From assembly GCF_007005445.1 (NCBI RefSeq), contig NZ_CP041387.1, positions 3,559,001 to 3,623,000 of the forward strand: 64,000 nucleotides of DNA, read 5' to 3'. This document shows, piece after piece, positions 11,139-19,381 of this stretch. Under the pieces are notes generated by a model. That model was not told where the DNA came from, ran no database searches, and saw nothing but the letters and a program-made list of their open reading frames with translations. The position numbers and the translations under genes are program-made. The DNA is from Rhodopseudomonas palustris (GTDB lineage Bacteria > Pseudomonadota > Alphaproteobacteria > Rhizobiales > Xanthobacteraceae). Every line of letters begins with the position of its first letter. The stretch's first letter is position 1.

Positions 11139-11163
11139 GGAACCATCCTCGGAGCTGCCCGTT
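11139..11163 (+). promoter_or_regulatory. EcfG-type promoter of the csbD gene
   Basis: GGAAC at 11139-11143, a 16-base spacer, and CGTT at 11160-11163 match the alphaproteobacterial general-stress sigma consensus GGAAC-N16/17-CGTT exactly. It lies 29 bases before the csbD start codon and in the correct orientation. EcfG itself is encoded at 17012-17557. Confidence 0.75.
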
Positions 11164-13654: not shown

Positions 13655-13680
13655 AACGTCGTCCGGTCCAAAACCGTTCC
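13655..13680 (-). promoter_or_regulatory. EcfG-type promoter of the L,D-transpeptidase operon
   Basis: Read on the minus strand: GGAAC (13680-13676), 17-base spacer, CGTT (13658-13655), an exact match to the EcfG consensus. It drives the L,D-transpeptidase and DUF2865 genes. Confidence 0.75.
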
Positions 13681-14995: not shown

Positions 14996-15382
14996 TCAGG
15001 CGAGGCAGCGGCCAGGCGCGAGCTGCTTGGCGGCTTCGGTGAGAACGCTCACCACCGGCTCGCAAGCCACGATCGGCTTAGGTGCCATCGCGGGCTTGTT
15101 CAGCGCCGGAGCGCGTAGCGCCCCACCGATCTGCTGCTGCGGGACCCGGACCAGAACGGATTGACCGATCAGGGTCACCGCGACGGTCTGCCCTGGCTGG
15201 GACTCACTGATCGCGCCGGCGCGATCGGCCTTGCCGGAGCGATTGACGTCCTGCGTCGGCACGGCGGATGCCTGCCGAAGCAACATCGTGCGGCCGAGAT
15301 CCTCGCCGACCGCCAGTTGCGCCGCACCCAGCGTCCCGGTGATAGCAAGGGCGCCCAGAATTCCCCGCACAATGTGTGACAT
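14996..15382 (-). CDS. Hypothetical exported protein
   Basis: A 128-residue protein with a signal peptide (about 1-26, GILGALAITGTLGAAQLAVG). The mature part is rich in Ala, Pro and Gln and ends with CEPVVSVLTEAAKQLAPGRC, where two cysteines 19 residues apart could form a disulfide. This C-terminal signature recurs in small exported proteins of Bradyrhizobiaceae (recall). Function is unknown. It sits between the permease and phyR without a recognisable EcfG promoter. Confidence 0.75.
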   Translation of the reverse strand: MSHIVRGILGALAITGTLGAAQLAVGEDLGRTMLLRQASAVPTQDVNRSGKADRAGAISESQPGQTVAVTLIGQSVLVRVPQQQIGGALRAPALNKPAMAPKPIVACEPVVSVLTEAAKQLAPGRCLA

Positions 15383-15544
15383 GATGATTTGCCGCTTTTG
15401 TTGTAGCCGGCGTTTGTGCCGCTTTCCCTGTGCGGCGCCGCCACTACGTCATTCGCAGCGCCCGCAATGATTAATCGCGCGGGCGGGAAAGCGGTTCGAC
15501 GGTGATCGATCAACTGAGCGTGTTAACGATTTTATCAGTTGACG

Positions 15545-15570
15545 GGAACGGTTTTGGCATACCGGACGTT
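15545..15570 (+). promoter_or_regulatory. EcfG-type promoter facing a gene-free region
   Basis: GGAAC (15545-15549), a 17-base spacer and CGTT (15567-15570) match the EcfG consensus exactly on the plus strand. No plus-strand coding gene follows: the next 170 bases are structured non-coding DNA and then the 3' end of phyR in antisense orientation. Confidence 0.6.
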
Positions 15571-15576
15571 CTTCGA

Positions 15577-15741
15577 GCGCCGGTAGTCCCCCTGCCCCAA
15601 AACCGGCGACCCAGGGCGCGGCTGCGTGATGCCAGCCGCGCCCTGTTCATGTCGATGGGCCCGCTTGAGCCGATTGCGCGGGCGTTGTGACGGACCACCA
15701 TCGACATGAAAAACGCCGCCCGAAATCCTCCGGACGGCGTT
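15577..15741 (+). ncRNA. Candidate stress-induced structured RNA
   Basis: Three inverted repeats lie back to back downstream of an exact EcfG-type promoter. Hairpin 1: CAGGGCGCGGCTG (15612-15624) with CAGCCGCGCCCTG (15633-15645), a perfect 13-base stem with 8-base loop. Hairpin 2: TTCATGTCGATGG (15646-15658) with CCATCGACATGAA (15698-15710), another perfect 13-base stem enclosing a nested GCCCGC/GCGGGC. Hairpin 3: the phyR terminator (15711-15741). No convincing reading frame or ribosome-binding site is present. The transcript end could be hairpin 1 (about 70 nt) or hairpin 3 (about 165 nt, which would abut the phyR 3' end). Being a dispersed repeat is the main alternative. Confidence 0.35.
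15711..15741 (-). terminator. Rho-independent terminator of phyR
   Basis: On the minus strand, AACGCCGTCCG and CGGGCGGCGTT form an 11-base stem (one mismatch) followed by a T-run (TTTTTC) at about 15712-15708, 24 bases past the phyR stop codon. Confidence 0.85.
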
Positions 15742-15764
15742 CACTGCGGCAACTGTTCTGATCG

Positions 15765-16571
15765 TCAGGAAGCGACGGCGCTGGGCTTCCGGTTCCGCGA
15801 GTTTCGCTGGAAAAACAGGGCCTGACTGGCAACCGCCGACACCATCGCGGTCTGGAACGGTTTCGATATCAGGAACGCCGGCTCGGGGCGCTCTCCCGTC
15901 AAGAAGCGCTCCGGATATGCCGTGATGAACACCACCGGCACCTCGAAAGTGCGCAGCAGCTCGTTGACCGCATCGAGGCCGGAGCTGCCGTCGGCGAGCT
16001 GGATGTCGGCCAGGATCAGGCCGGGCTTCTTGGTGCGGGCCAGCGCAATCGCATCCGCATGGGTGCGGGCGACGCCGATCACGTTGTGACCGAGGCCCTT
16101 GACCAGGCTCTCGAGGTCCATGGCGATGAAAGTCTCGTCCTCGATGATCAGAACGTCGGTCGCGATCTCCTCGGCCATCTCGCGGCCGGCGGCGTCGACG
16201 TACTCACGAATCTCGCTGACATCGGCCTGGAGCACGAAGGCCACCTCCTCCTCGGAGAAACCTTCCAGCGACAAAAGCAGAAACGCCTGGCGCGGCAGGG
16301 GTGTGATTGCCGACAGCCGCCGCTCCGAAGGCATCGGCAGGGTGCGAACCTCGGCGTCGTCGTTCAGGGCGACCGAGTTCCAAATCTGGGTAAACAAACG
16401 GAAAAGACCGGCGCGCGGGCCGTGCCGCTCGTCGAGAAGGGCGGGGTCCTGGAGCAGTGCCTCCAGCATGGCGCCCACATAGGCGTCGCCGGAGGTCTGG
16501 CTACCGGTCAGCGCGCGCGCATAGCGGCGCAGCAAGGGCAAATGCTCTGCAACAACCTGTGATCTCGACAT
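15765..16571 (-). CDS. phyR: General stress response regulator PhyR
   Basis: A 268-residue response regulator that, when phosphorylated, binds the anti-sigma factor NepR by sigma-factor mimicry and frees EcfG. The N-terminal sigma-like domain (about 1-128) starts HLPLLRRYARALTGSQ. The C-terminal receiver (about 138-255) has the acidic pair ED at 144-145, the phospho-acceptor region LILADIQLADG (Asp near 189) and the Lys of ISKPF near 237. The start MSRSQ has GGAG five bases upstream, and a six-residue longer ATG is possible. It is divergent from nepR-ecfG across a region with overlapping EcfG boxes. Confidence 0.96.
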   Translation of the reverse strand: MSRSQVVAEHLPLLRRYARALTGSQTSGDAYVGAMLEALLQDPALLDERHGPRAGLFRLFTQIWNSVALNDDAEVRTLPMPSERRLSAITPLPRQAFLLLSLEGFSEEEVAFVLQADVSEIREYVDAAGREMAEEIATDVLIIEDETFIAMDLESLVKGLGHNVIGVARTHADAIALARTKKPGLILADIQLADGSSGLDAVNELLRTFEVPVVFITAYPERFLTGERPEPAFLISKPFQTAMVSAVASQALFFQRNSRNRKPSAVAS

Positions 16572-16633
16572 CCCCACTCCATCAGTCATCTCGGCAACCG
16601 CCCGCCGCGGGCCGGCACCTCTGCGAGGGCAAC

Positions 16634-16775: not shown

Positions 16776-17012
16776 ATGCAAGAATTCAAGGCTCAAACCA
16801 TGAAGAAGTCGGCTCCAGGCACCAAGGGTGGTCTCAACGCCGAAATTCAGGCTCGGATCGGACATCAATTACGGGCGATGTACGACGACGTGGTGCGGCA
16901 GGGTGTTCCTGATCGGTTCGCGGACCTGATCAAGAAGCTGGACGACCCGCAGCGGGCGGCGGAAGCCGCGACTGCCTCGGATACCAACAGCAGCACCGAA
17001 GGGAGGGACTAA
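16776..17012 (+). CDS. nepR: Anti-sigma factor NepR
   Basis: A 78-residue (or 70 from the second ATG at 16800) anti-sigma factor that holds EcfG inactive until phosphorylated PhyR sequesters it. The conserved core is IQARIGHQLRAMYDDVVRQG followed by VPDRFADLIKKL, the two helices that clamp sigma domains. Neither candidate ATG has a clear Shine-Dalgarno, so the start is uncertain. The stop overlaps the ecfG ATG by one base (TAATG), coupling the anti-sigma and sigma factors. Confidence 0.95.
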   Translation: MQEFKAQTMKKSAPGTKGGLNAEIQARIGHQLRAMYDDVVRQGVPDRFADLIKKLDDPQRAAEAATASDTNSSTEGRD

Positions 17013-17557
17013 TGCCTCTCACCGATTCCCTCCGGGACGACATTCTCGCCGCGGTGCCGAGCCTGCGCGCGTTCGCGATCTCGCTGAGCGGCAACGCCGA
17101 CCGCGCCGACGACCTGGTCCAGGAGACCTTGCTGCGCGCTCTCGCCAACATCGATTCCTTCCAGCCGGGCTCCAACCTGCCGGCCTGGTTGTTCACGATC
17201 CTGCGCAACCTGTTTCGCTCCGACTATCGCAAACGGCGGCGCGAGGTGGAGGACGCGGACGGCAGCTACGCCAAGACGCTCAAGTCGCAGCCCGGGCAGA
17301 CCGCGCATCTGGAATTCGAGGAATTCCGCACCGCACTGGACAAACTTCCGCAGGATCAACGCGAAGCGCTGATCCTGGTCGGCGCCTCCGGCTTCTCTTA
17401 TGAAGACGCCGCGGCGATCTGCGGCTGTGCGGTCGGCACGATCAAGAGCCGGGTCAACCGCGCCAGATCCAAGCTCAGCGCCCTGCTTTACGTCGACGGT
17501 GCGGAGGATTTCGGTCCGGACGATACCGTACGCGCCGTGATCGGCGGCAACGGCTGA
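17012..17557 (+). CDS. ecfG: General stress ECF sigma factor EcfG
   Basis: A 181-residue ECF15/EcfG-type sigma factor. Region 2 is visible as DRADDLVQETLLRALANIDSF (about 30-50) with the LPAWLFTILRNLFRSDYRKR core-binding helix. Region 4 is TALDKLPQDQREALILVGASG and the helix-turn-helix SYEDAAAICGCAVGTIKSRVNRAR (about 128-152). It would read GGAAC-N16/17-CGTT promoters, of which nine candidates lie within 11-22 kb of this window. It is cotranscribed with nepR and followed by a terminator. Confidence 0.96.
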   Translation: MPLTDSLRDDILAAVPSLRAFAISLSGNADRADDLVQETLLRALANIDSFQPGSNLPAWLFTILRNLFRSDYRKRRREVEDADGSYAKTLKSQPGQTAHLEFEEFRTALDKLPQDQREALILVGASGFSYEDAAAICGCAVGTIKSRVNRARSKLSALLYVDGAEDFGPDDTVRAVIGGNG

Positions 17558-17716: not shown

Positions 17717-19381
17717 CTATGGATGACGCGGCTTGCGGACCGGCCGGACCGGCGCGGTGATCTGCCCGGTCCGGGCCCGCTCGTTGACGTCGACAACGGT
17801 TTCGAGCGGCGCTGTCAGCTCATAGACGTAGCTGACATCGGTGAAATAGCGCTTGGAAGTGCCGCCGAGCGCTTCGGGCGCGACACGGTCGAGCAGGATG
17901 ATACCGAACTCGCTGTCGGGGCGGCGGGTGGCCGCGCTGGTGTTGAACTCTTCCCACCGGAAATAGAACGTCGCGTCCTTGCCTTCGCCGGTCACCGACC
18001 AGCTTGCCACTACGCTCGGATGCTTGCCGACCACGGCCAGCCCCTCGTCGGAATGCGACGCCAGCTCGAAGAACAGTAGCGACAAGCTCTGTGCCGCCCG
18101 GGCGCTGACCGCAATGTCCGGTCCATCGACTTCGATCCGGTCGGCATGCGGGATCGCCCGCCCCTCGAACAGGCCTTTCAGCATCACGCCCTGCCATTGG
18201 CTGTCGCTGAGCAGCGAAACCACGTTGGACATCGCGTGAATCCGCCCGATCAGCAATTCGCGGGCGACGTCGAGATCCGAGCCGTGGCGCAGCGTCCGGG
18301 TGACGATCGACTGAATAACCGCCAGGATGTTCTTCACCCGGTGGTTGAGTTCGTCGATCACTGCGGTAAGGCGGCGCTCGAAGCCGATCCGCATCTGAAT
18401 CTCGCGCCGTAGCCGGATATTGCTGTAGCTGACATAGCCGAACAGCCCGCAGACGATCAGCGTCAGCGCCAGGCCGGCCAGCCCGATGATCAGCGCCATC
18501 TTCTGGGCACGGTCGTAAGGATCGATCTTCGGGTAATAAGCCAGCGACCAGTCGCGGTTGCCGAACGTCACGGTACGCATGATGAACGGGTGGAAGCCCT
18601 CGGGATGGGCTCGTGAACTGATCTGCCCGCTCTCGTCGGCGACCAGCTCGTAACCTGCGCGGCTCGGATCCTTCAGCACCACCGAGAACAACGACAGATC
18701 ATCATTGGTCAGCATCAAGGTGGCGAGGTTGTACGAGAAGGTCACGAAGCCGACGATATCGGAGCTGTCAGTATTCATCACAGGCGCCGCCAGCACCACG
18801 CCGATCGGGCCGTTGCCGGTCAGCGGCAACGGGTCGGACACGTGCGGCTGGCCTTCGGCCAACGCTTGGGCGAAGGTTCGGCCCAGAATCGGATCGTGAT
18901 CCAGCATCCGTCCGGTGAGCGCCATCGTCTCCGCATTCCGCGGCTCGACATCCATCACGACGTCCAGCACCGGATCGCGGGTCAGATCCAGGGGCTGGCC
19001 GTCATAATCGCGGACGGTCGGCTCGGGAAAGCCGGCCCTTGTCAACTCGGCCTCTGCCGCGGGCACTTCCTCGGGCTTCAACCGGGCAACCCAGGTGGCG
19101 AGTACGAAATCGGTCTTGAAGGTATAGATCGACGATCGCAGCGGCTGCAGCATGTCGGCCTTGATTACCGACGGCTTGCGGAACAGGCCGGACGCCACAC
19201 GGCCGAGCAGCTCGCGCTCGGTCAACCGATCCTGAACCTGACTGGCATGGACGTCGATGGCACGTCCGAGCGCGATCCGCTGAATGGCCGCTTCCTGCTC
19301 GTAAACGCGAGATGCGGAAAAGCCGGACAGCACCACCCCGACAATGGCGATCAAGCCGATGATGAAGCCTAGCCGAACCAC
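17717..19381 (-). CDS. CHASE-domain HWE-family sensor histidine kinase with atypical ATP site
   Basis: A 554-residue membrane sensor: helix at about 6-20, periplasmic CHASE domain (about 30-285), second helix at 294-316, then an HWE-type kinase core with the phospho-acceptor motif ELNHRVKNILAV (His347). Kinases of this family in this position usually phosphorylate PhyR. The normal N-box HELATNAxKYG is replaced by FELASHSDEGLAV (439-451), which lacks the ATP/Mg-coordinating Asn and the conserved Lys, so ATP binding may be impaired. The start is GTG with GAGTAAGAG upstream. It may act as a modified kinase, phosphatase or partner subunit (inference). Confidence 0.88.
   Translation of the reverse strand: MVRLGFIIGLIAIVGVVLSGFSASRVYEQEAAIQRIALGRAIDVHASQVQDRLTERELLGRVASGLFRKPSVIKADMLQPLRSSIYTFKTDFVLATWVARLKPEEVPAAEAELTRAGFPEPTVRDYDGQPLDLTRDPVLDVVMDVEPRNAETMALTGRMLDHDPILGRTFAQALAEGQPHVSDPLPLTGNGPIGVVLAAPVMNTDSSDIVGFVTFSYNLATLMLTNDDLSLFSVVLKDPSRAGYELVADESGQISSRAHPEGFHPFIMRTVTFGNRDWSLAYYPKIDPYDRAQKMALIIGLAGLALTLIVCGLFGYVSYSNIRLRREIQMRIGFERRLTAVIDELNHRVKNILAVIQSIVTRTLRHGSDLDVARELLIGRIHAMSNVVSLLSDSQWQGVMLKGLFEGRAIPHADRIEVDGPDIAVSARAAQSLSLLFFELASHSDEGLAVVGKHPSVVASWSVTGEGKDATFYFRWEEFNTSAATRRPDSEFGIILLDRVAPEALGGTSKRYFTDVSYVYELTAPLETVVDVNERARTGQITAPVRPVRKPRHP

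Follow-up and report, generated by a model that had tools for sequence, protein, structure and literature searches.

A predicted EcfG-driven small RNA with a C-rich loop, conserved beside phyR in Rhodopseudomonas palustris and its relatives

The candidate RNA discussed here is surrounded by a general-stress-response locus, recognized through Pfam and NCBIfam profile matches on the open reading frames (ORFs) of the window (the whole 64,000-nucleotide stretch of Rhodopseudomonas palustris DNA that was analysed), and the features needed for the argument are these:

15545..15570, plus strand: EcfG-type promoter, exact, with GGAAC at 15545-15549, a 17-nt spacer and CGTT at 15567-15570
15577..15650, plus strand: predicted small RNA of about 70-75 nt, supported by covariance-model matches, covariation and a fold z-score of -6.1
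15578..15608, plus strand: 5' hairpin from fold prediction, stem 15578-15584/15602-15608
15588..15598, plus strand: C-rich loop CCCCCTGCCCC, the predicted mRNA-pairing site
15612..15645, plus strand: terminator hairpin with a perfect 13-bp stem and an 8-nt loop, supported by folding and by the covariation of helix 2
15626..15633, plus strand: terminator-loop motif GUGAUGCC, unchanged throughout the 59 core rows (58 of them distinct)
15646..15710, no strand assigned: second 13-bp inverted repeat with a nested stem, outside the conserved RNA
15765..16577, minus strand: phyR, convergent neighbour of the small RNA (PF22029, PF22233, NF006623 at 366 bits)
16800..17012, plus strand: nepR (PF18557 above cut-off, NF051865 below its own cut-off; a start at 16776 is also possible)
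17012..17557, plus strand: ecfG (NF009192 at 395.8 bits; sigma-70 regions 2 and 4), so named because of the phyR-nepR neighbourhood
17717-19381, minus strand: HWE-type sensor kinase with a CHASE domain

Divergent from the small RNA lies a small ORF (14996-15382, minus strand) whose start looks, by eye, like a signal peptide and which matches nothing in Pfam or NCBIfam; a relative of it adjoins the RNA in all 24 relatives displayed (L031 not counted), several loci in which no phyR was found included. In several divergent genera (L077, L079, L080, L084, L086, L087, L092, L102), an ORF starting MNWDR(I/V), presumably CsbD-like, is found near the small RNA or phyR behind another EcfG-like site.

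The first-pass annotation of this DNA described an exact EcfG promoter pointing into the stretch beside phyR, and the GGAAC-N17-CGTT arrangement is indeed present at 15545-15570; by itself such a site is weak evidence because the window holds three GGAAC-N16/17-CGTT sites against 0.78 expected, and 3 of 100 shuffles reach three. The second site, again an exact GGAAC-N17-CGTT (13655-13680, minus strand), stands about 50 nt upstream of the likely ATG (13606) of an L,D-transpeptidase gene (YkuD, PF03734), and the first half of its spacer resembles that of the small RNA promoter; the third, GGAAC-N16-CGTT, is at 11139-11163 on the plus strand. Among the relatives, GGAAC starts 31-36 nt upstream of the first aligned RNA base in all 48 members examined (29 core members and the 19 best divergent ones), compared with a background of 8.3% of random 75-nt stretches from the same loci, while the strict EcfG pattern is found in 29 (background 1.6%) and the loose pattern in 43 (background 5.6%), with a recognisable -10 missing in 5 of the 19 divergent members. 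The latter were drawn from stretches fetched beside phyR, and therefore their place is no evidence, whereas their promoters count as evidence. The small RNA at 15577-15650 is very probably EcfG-driven.

The start of the predicted RNA at 15577 follows from promoter spacing, and its 3' end near 15650 is approximate. Folding of 15577-15645 gives -41.4 kcal/mol (z -6.1), with none of 200 shuffles as stable, and the predicted fold presents an open 17-nt loop (15585-15601) containing CCCCCUGCCCC; this 5' hairpin with its C-rich loop is the most telling element of the RNA and was absent from the first-pass annotation, which had built on two consecutive perfect 13-bp stems (15612-15645 and 15646-15710), a stem nested within the second, and the phyR terminator hairpin. 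Both stems are there, making up two of the three perfect 13-bp inverted repeats (loop 3-45) in the window, where 40 order-2 Markov simulations yielded 0.33 raw matches per window, and the nested stem is visible in the predicted folds. The hairpin on the phyR side also appears in the folds (about 15742-15711, minus strand), but a strict terminator scan of both strands over 15383-15800 returned no terminator-like site. The extent proposed earlier, reaching over the second stem and the phyR terminator, was too generous: the conserved unit covers only about 15577-15650, the phyR-side hairpin begins some 60 nt beyond its end, the phyR terminator falls outside the covariance model, and the second stem was rejected as a part of the family when none of ten relatives checked had a counterpart of it between the small RNA and phyR. 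It is speculation that the 15646-15710 hairpin may provide a late 3' end in the R. palustris strain of the window. No Rfam family reached its gathering score in the window, and a relaxed-score search of 15400-15800 gave a best E of 0.38 to an implausible family.

Covariation analysis of the region had been proposed at the first pass, and the main figures come from alignment A1, which holds 29 sequences (L002-L030) aligned by MAFFT without structure; L001 was left out as a repeat of L002 and L031 as a false hit, its promoter and 5' hairpin not being recognisable. RNAalifold predicts two hairpins from this alignment, with standard pairs in 98.0% of 606 cells and two-sided changes at 13 of 21 pairs, and 0 of 500 shuffles reach any of the five measures of covariation; when the structures are slid by 1-3 columns, paired cells drop to 27-53%. 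Helix 1, the 5' hairpin, is paired in 98.5% of cells and shows two-sided changes in 2 of its 7 pairs, and helix 2, the terminator hairpin, shows them in 11 of 14. The other alignment, A3, which is fitted to the model and includes a second copy from genome G138, leans towards the model structure. The observation of a structured small RNA beside phyR is, at the level of sequence, confirmed, and the earlier suggestion that it could act in trans gains support from its conservation, covariation and fixed promoter spacing.

The distribution of the RNA was followed with BLAST and with two covariance models, R1 from the 29 core sequences and R2 from a wider set of 78 rows with divergent members among them, which score the window copy at 72.7 bits (a copy that is in R1's own alignment) and 68.3 bits, respectively. 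Of the 198 genomes sampled from the bacterial family, 32 have a BLAST match to the query 15540-15765; besides the window, 29 matches lie inside query positions 1-109 (15540-15648), from the promoter to the first stem, while those of G179 and G087, on contigs other than phyR's, span query 158-202 and touch the 3' arm of the second stem or the phyR-side hairpin, to which secondary pieces in L003 and L005 (query 169-203) also map. R1 extends the count to 70 matches in 69 of the 198 genomes and 16 of 47 genera, and R2 to 108 genomes and 27 genera, nearly always with a single match per positive genome (68 of 69 for R1, 105 of 108 for R2); extra R2 matches on other contigs occur in G004 (three in all) and G021 (two). 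A dispersed repeat, which the first-pass annotation had named as the finding that would undo its candidate, does not fit the genome itself, where 15500-15800 has one match and the model one match. Outside the family, R1 matched 3 of 385 genomes of the class, two that belong in the family and one bare terminator (G342, rejected because its alignment lacks the 5' hairpin and shows a terminator hairpin alone), and R2 matched 4 of 150 genomes of the order and 1 of 289 of the class, all in the family; this absence elsewhere is soft because the genome searches, with strict filters, score only 11-29 first-look candidates per genome. On 18 of at least 80 loci from a loose-pattern scan of contigs, mostly of unrelated organisms, R1 gave three matches, scoring 98.3 bits in Tardiphaga robiniae, 87.1 in Bradyrhizobium barranii and 72.2 in an Afipia MAG. 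Among 20 stretches downstream of phyR in distant genera (L084-L103), nine match R1 at E<=1e-3 and L101 at 1.4e-3, the remainder having no R1 match of note. Ten relatives that have phyR yet gave R1 no match in the genome search (L064-L073) showed no clear match beside phyR, L072 being borderline (E 6e-4 in one model search, 0.036 in another), and these are possibly losses or cases of strong divergence; in L065 a remnant-like GACCGGCGA accompanies an EcfG site.

The promoter-like site, the two-hairpin structure, the conservation and the synteny with phyR are all seen in the sequence itself, and from them I infer transcription, dependence on EcfG and pairing through the C-rich loop. The reading that I favour, and hold with reasonable confidence, is a trans-acting, EcfG-transcribed RNA some 70 nt in length that pairs with mRNAs through its C-rich loop as a post-transcriptional arm of the stress response. 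PhyR would release EcfG from NepR, EcfG-RNA polymerase would then transcribe the RNA from 15545-15570, the 5' hairpin would hold an 11-nt C-rich stretch single-stranded while the terminator hairpin ends the transcript, and the loop would most likely find its pairing partners in G-rich segments of 5' leaders or close to ribosome-binding sites, adding this arm to the general stress response much as GsrN does in Caulobacter. The loop behaves as such a reading would have it: a run of four or more C is present in 76 of 77 distinct rows, all but a truncated copy, and in 70 of 77 predicted folds at least 8 of the 11 nucleotides of the C-rich 11-mer are unpaired, with many divergent genera carrying CCCUCCCC there and not CCCCUGCCCC.

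As for individual targets, katG is present in all 14 genomes searched (15 full-length loci), and seven leaders with a placeable start were tested, eight loci being left out, some with the longest ORF on the wrong strand. It was set aside as a conserved target: in each of five genomes whose own loop was used (leaders from the same seven), between 173 and 194 of 200 shuffles of the leader pair at least as well as the leader itself, and with the window's loop 177-192 of 200 do so for six of the seven leaders, the exception being L274 at 39 of 200, all by single-base shuffles on presumed leaders. Feedback on the stress-response genes was likewise set aside: measured against all 40-nt stretches of the window, pairing of the loop with the start regions of ecfG and phyR gets no further than the top 4.6% and 1.7%, respectively. 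The genome holds 14 exact complements (GGGGCAGGGG) of the loop, one being the strand opposite the RNA, against 7 for a reversed-pattern control, and the 14 show no evident gene-start pattern. In the window, GGTGATGCC is found at five places where 0.87 would be expected, a count reached in 0 of 100 shuffles; the small RNA's own copy reads CGTGATGCC, and none of the five places is the small RNA.

The C-rich loop may not be the only recognition element, since terminator loops usually drift and GUGAUGCC is invariant across the 59 core rows although the stem below it covaries, with those two-sided changes at 11 of 14 pairs in the 29 sequences; this suggests a second functional element in the terminator loop. 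A truncated second copy in G138 (L314:1765-1844) consists of the terminator half, again with GUGAUGCC in its loop, and the full copy is about 1.5 kb away. That GUGAUGCC is a second recognition site, for an mRNA or a protein, making the C-rich loop one of two elements, would be an addition to the favoured explanation and not its opposite, and I put it forward tentatively, as a possibility short of an expectation, for GUGAUGCC appears in 0 of 19 divergent rows, all core rows come from one bacterial family, and its partner is only putative.

The position of the RNA invites a different thought, that it converges on phyR mainly to tune the phyR mRNA or its terminator by antisense pairing or transcription interference. 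PhyR is found at E<=1e-40 in 184 of the 198 family genomes, and 66 of the 70 R1 matches lie on its contig (the other four on another contig), every one of the 66 convergent on phyR and 44 of them within 500 nt of it; among 36 further R2 matches, with six training matches left out and one, from G052, having been in the model alignment, 27 are on phyR's contig, again all convergent and at 22-1547 nt, five are on other contigs and four have no listed phyR place. Convergence in all compared same-contig cases, and such closeness in two-thirds of the 66, would suit an antisense element. Yet 13 of the 66 lie at 0.5-5 kb (a group that includes the truncated second copy of G138) and nine at 5-30 kb, and because the RNA is kept at these last nine, trans action is favoured over antisense; moreover, the conserved RNA stops about 60 nt short of the phyR-side hairpin in the window, and pure interference would not need loops that are conserved while stems covary. 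An antisense role at the phyR 3' end, raised as an option at the first pass, is accordingly unlikely to be the main one, and I consider an interference element very improbable as an account of the whole.

Returning to a trans-acting RNA with its own terminator, at least six T are found among the first 12 tail nucleotides in 59 of 77 rows; the window copy's U tract is weak and degenerate (UUCAUGUC, 4 T in the first 12 nt), and the tails of L003-L005, close relatives of that copy, contain 4-5 T. That the locus encodes no separate RNA, only leftover hairpins, paired terminators or the EcfG-regulated leader of a small ORF, might be read from this weak U tract and from an ATG inside the terminator loop, but it is scarcely credible against compensatory stem changes, invariant loops, a fixed promoter distance and a spread over 27 of 47 genera, and in relatives an ORF from the loop ATG would enter the terminator tail.

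Comparison with known systems leads to GsrN of Caulobacter crescentus (ccna_R0081), which, as described in the accessible text of Tien et al. (2018; PMC5869019), is SigT-dependent, pairs through a 5' C-rich loop with the leader of katG, a proven target, and is processed, with a full-length form that depends on Hfq. The legend of Figure 9A in the same paper lists predicted gsrN homologs in R. palustris and Bradyrhizobium diazoefficiens, which according to that accessible text rest solely on proximity and promoter, and gives structures for Caulobacteraceae and Rhizobiaceae. The predicted R. palustris gsrN is very probably the locus at 15577-15650, because the organism group is the same, the place is next to the general-stress-response genes and an EcfG site lies upstream (PMC5869019, as far as its accessible text goes). 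The remark in the first-pass annotation that no RNA was described here is thus right in part: literature on small RNAs, EcfG and PhyR in Rhodopseudomonas and Bradyrhizobium, with subscription journals mostly outside its scope, gave no other description of the RNA in titles or abstract openings, and the accessible text of PMC4842269 makes no mention of an RNA beside phyR, but a homolog of GsrN had already been predicted. New here are the evidence, the definition of the family and the invariant terminator loop GUGAUGCC, the R. palustris gsrN prediction itself belonging, so far as its accessible text allows one to say, to PMC5869019.

A direct search for kinship used RF01529 (CC3552, 106 positions), which shares the general architecture with the window RNA and is not listed in the window at E up to 5 or in 11 loci of relatives at E up to 10. 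It does match at 101 bits near phyR in L234, with an EcfG site just upstream, and since the PhyR of that genome matches PDB 3n0r (which I take to be C. crescentus PhyR) at 4.9e-125, the genome is probably one of the Caulobacteraceae; the 106 positions, the EcfG site and the nearby phyR in L234 make RF01529 probably GsrN itself. In the reverse direction, neither R1 nor R2 lists the RF01529 place in L234. A scan for an EcfG site accompanied by a C-rich stretch covered 40 stretches, of which 39 surround phyR in genomes from other families; GsrN-like candidates were picked by eye in L227, L233, L234 (there the RF01529 match), L243 and L266; R1 gave the L227 candidate 10.8 bits (E 0.7), and the other four are in neither model's list.

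The window RNA therefore resembles GsrN in its apparent way of working, while homology to GsrN by sequence or covariance model was detected in neither direction. Like GsrN, it has an EcfG/SigT-type promoter directly upstream, the usual (not absolute) position by the phyR-nepR-ecfG locus, and a 5' structure with an exposed C-rich loop. GsrN ends in a 3' terminator; the window RNA has a conserved hairpin in that place, with a degenerate U tract in the window copy and no site there in the strict scan. Unlike GsrN, it is about 70 nt and not about 106 nt long with one simple 5' hairpin, it converges on phyR where the RF01529 match is on the phyR strand (in L234, one Caulobacteraceae-like locus), it carries the invariant GUGAUGCC terminator loop, and it has no predicted katG leader pairing. 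Covariation, together with rules for promoter and synteny, now defines an RNA family where R. palustris and Bradyrhizobium had a prediction from location and promoter; in the bacteria that carry the RNA, Bradyrhizobium included, the general stress response gains a testable post-transcriptional arm; and the invariant terminator loop calls for an explanation. It is conceivable, though rather unlikely, that the Bradyrhizobium-Rhodopseudomonas side of the bacterial family has an RNA family of its own, which does not descend from GsrN but came separately to the same design of EcfG promoter and C-rich loop and has a second, invariant recognition loop, GUGAUGCC, in its terminator, and if so, one stress RNA would read two classes of targets or bind a partner protein through its terminator.
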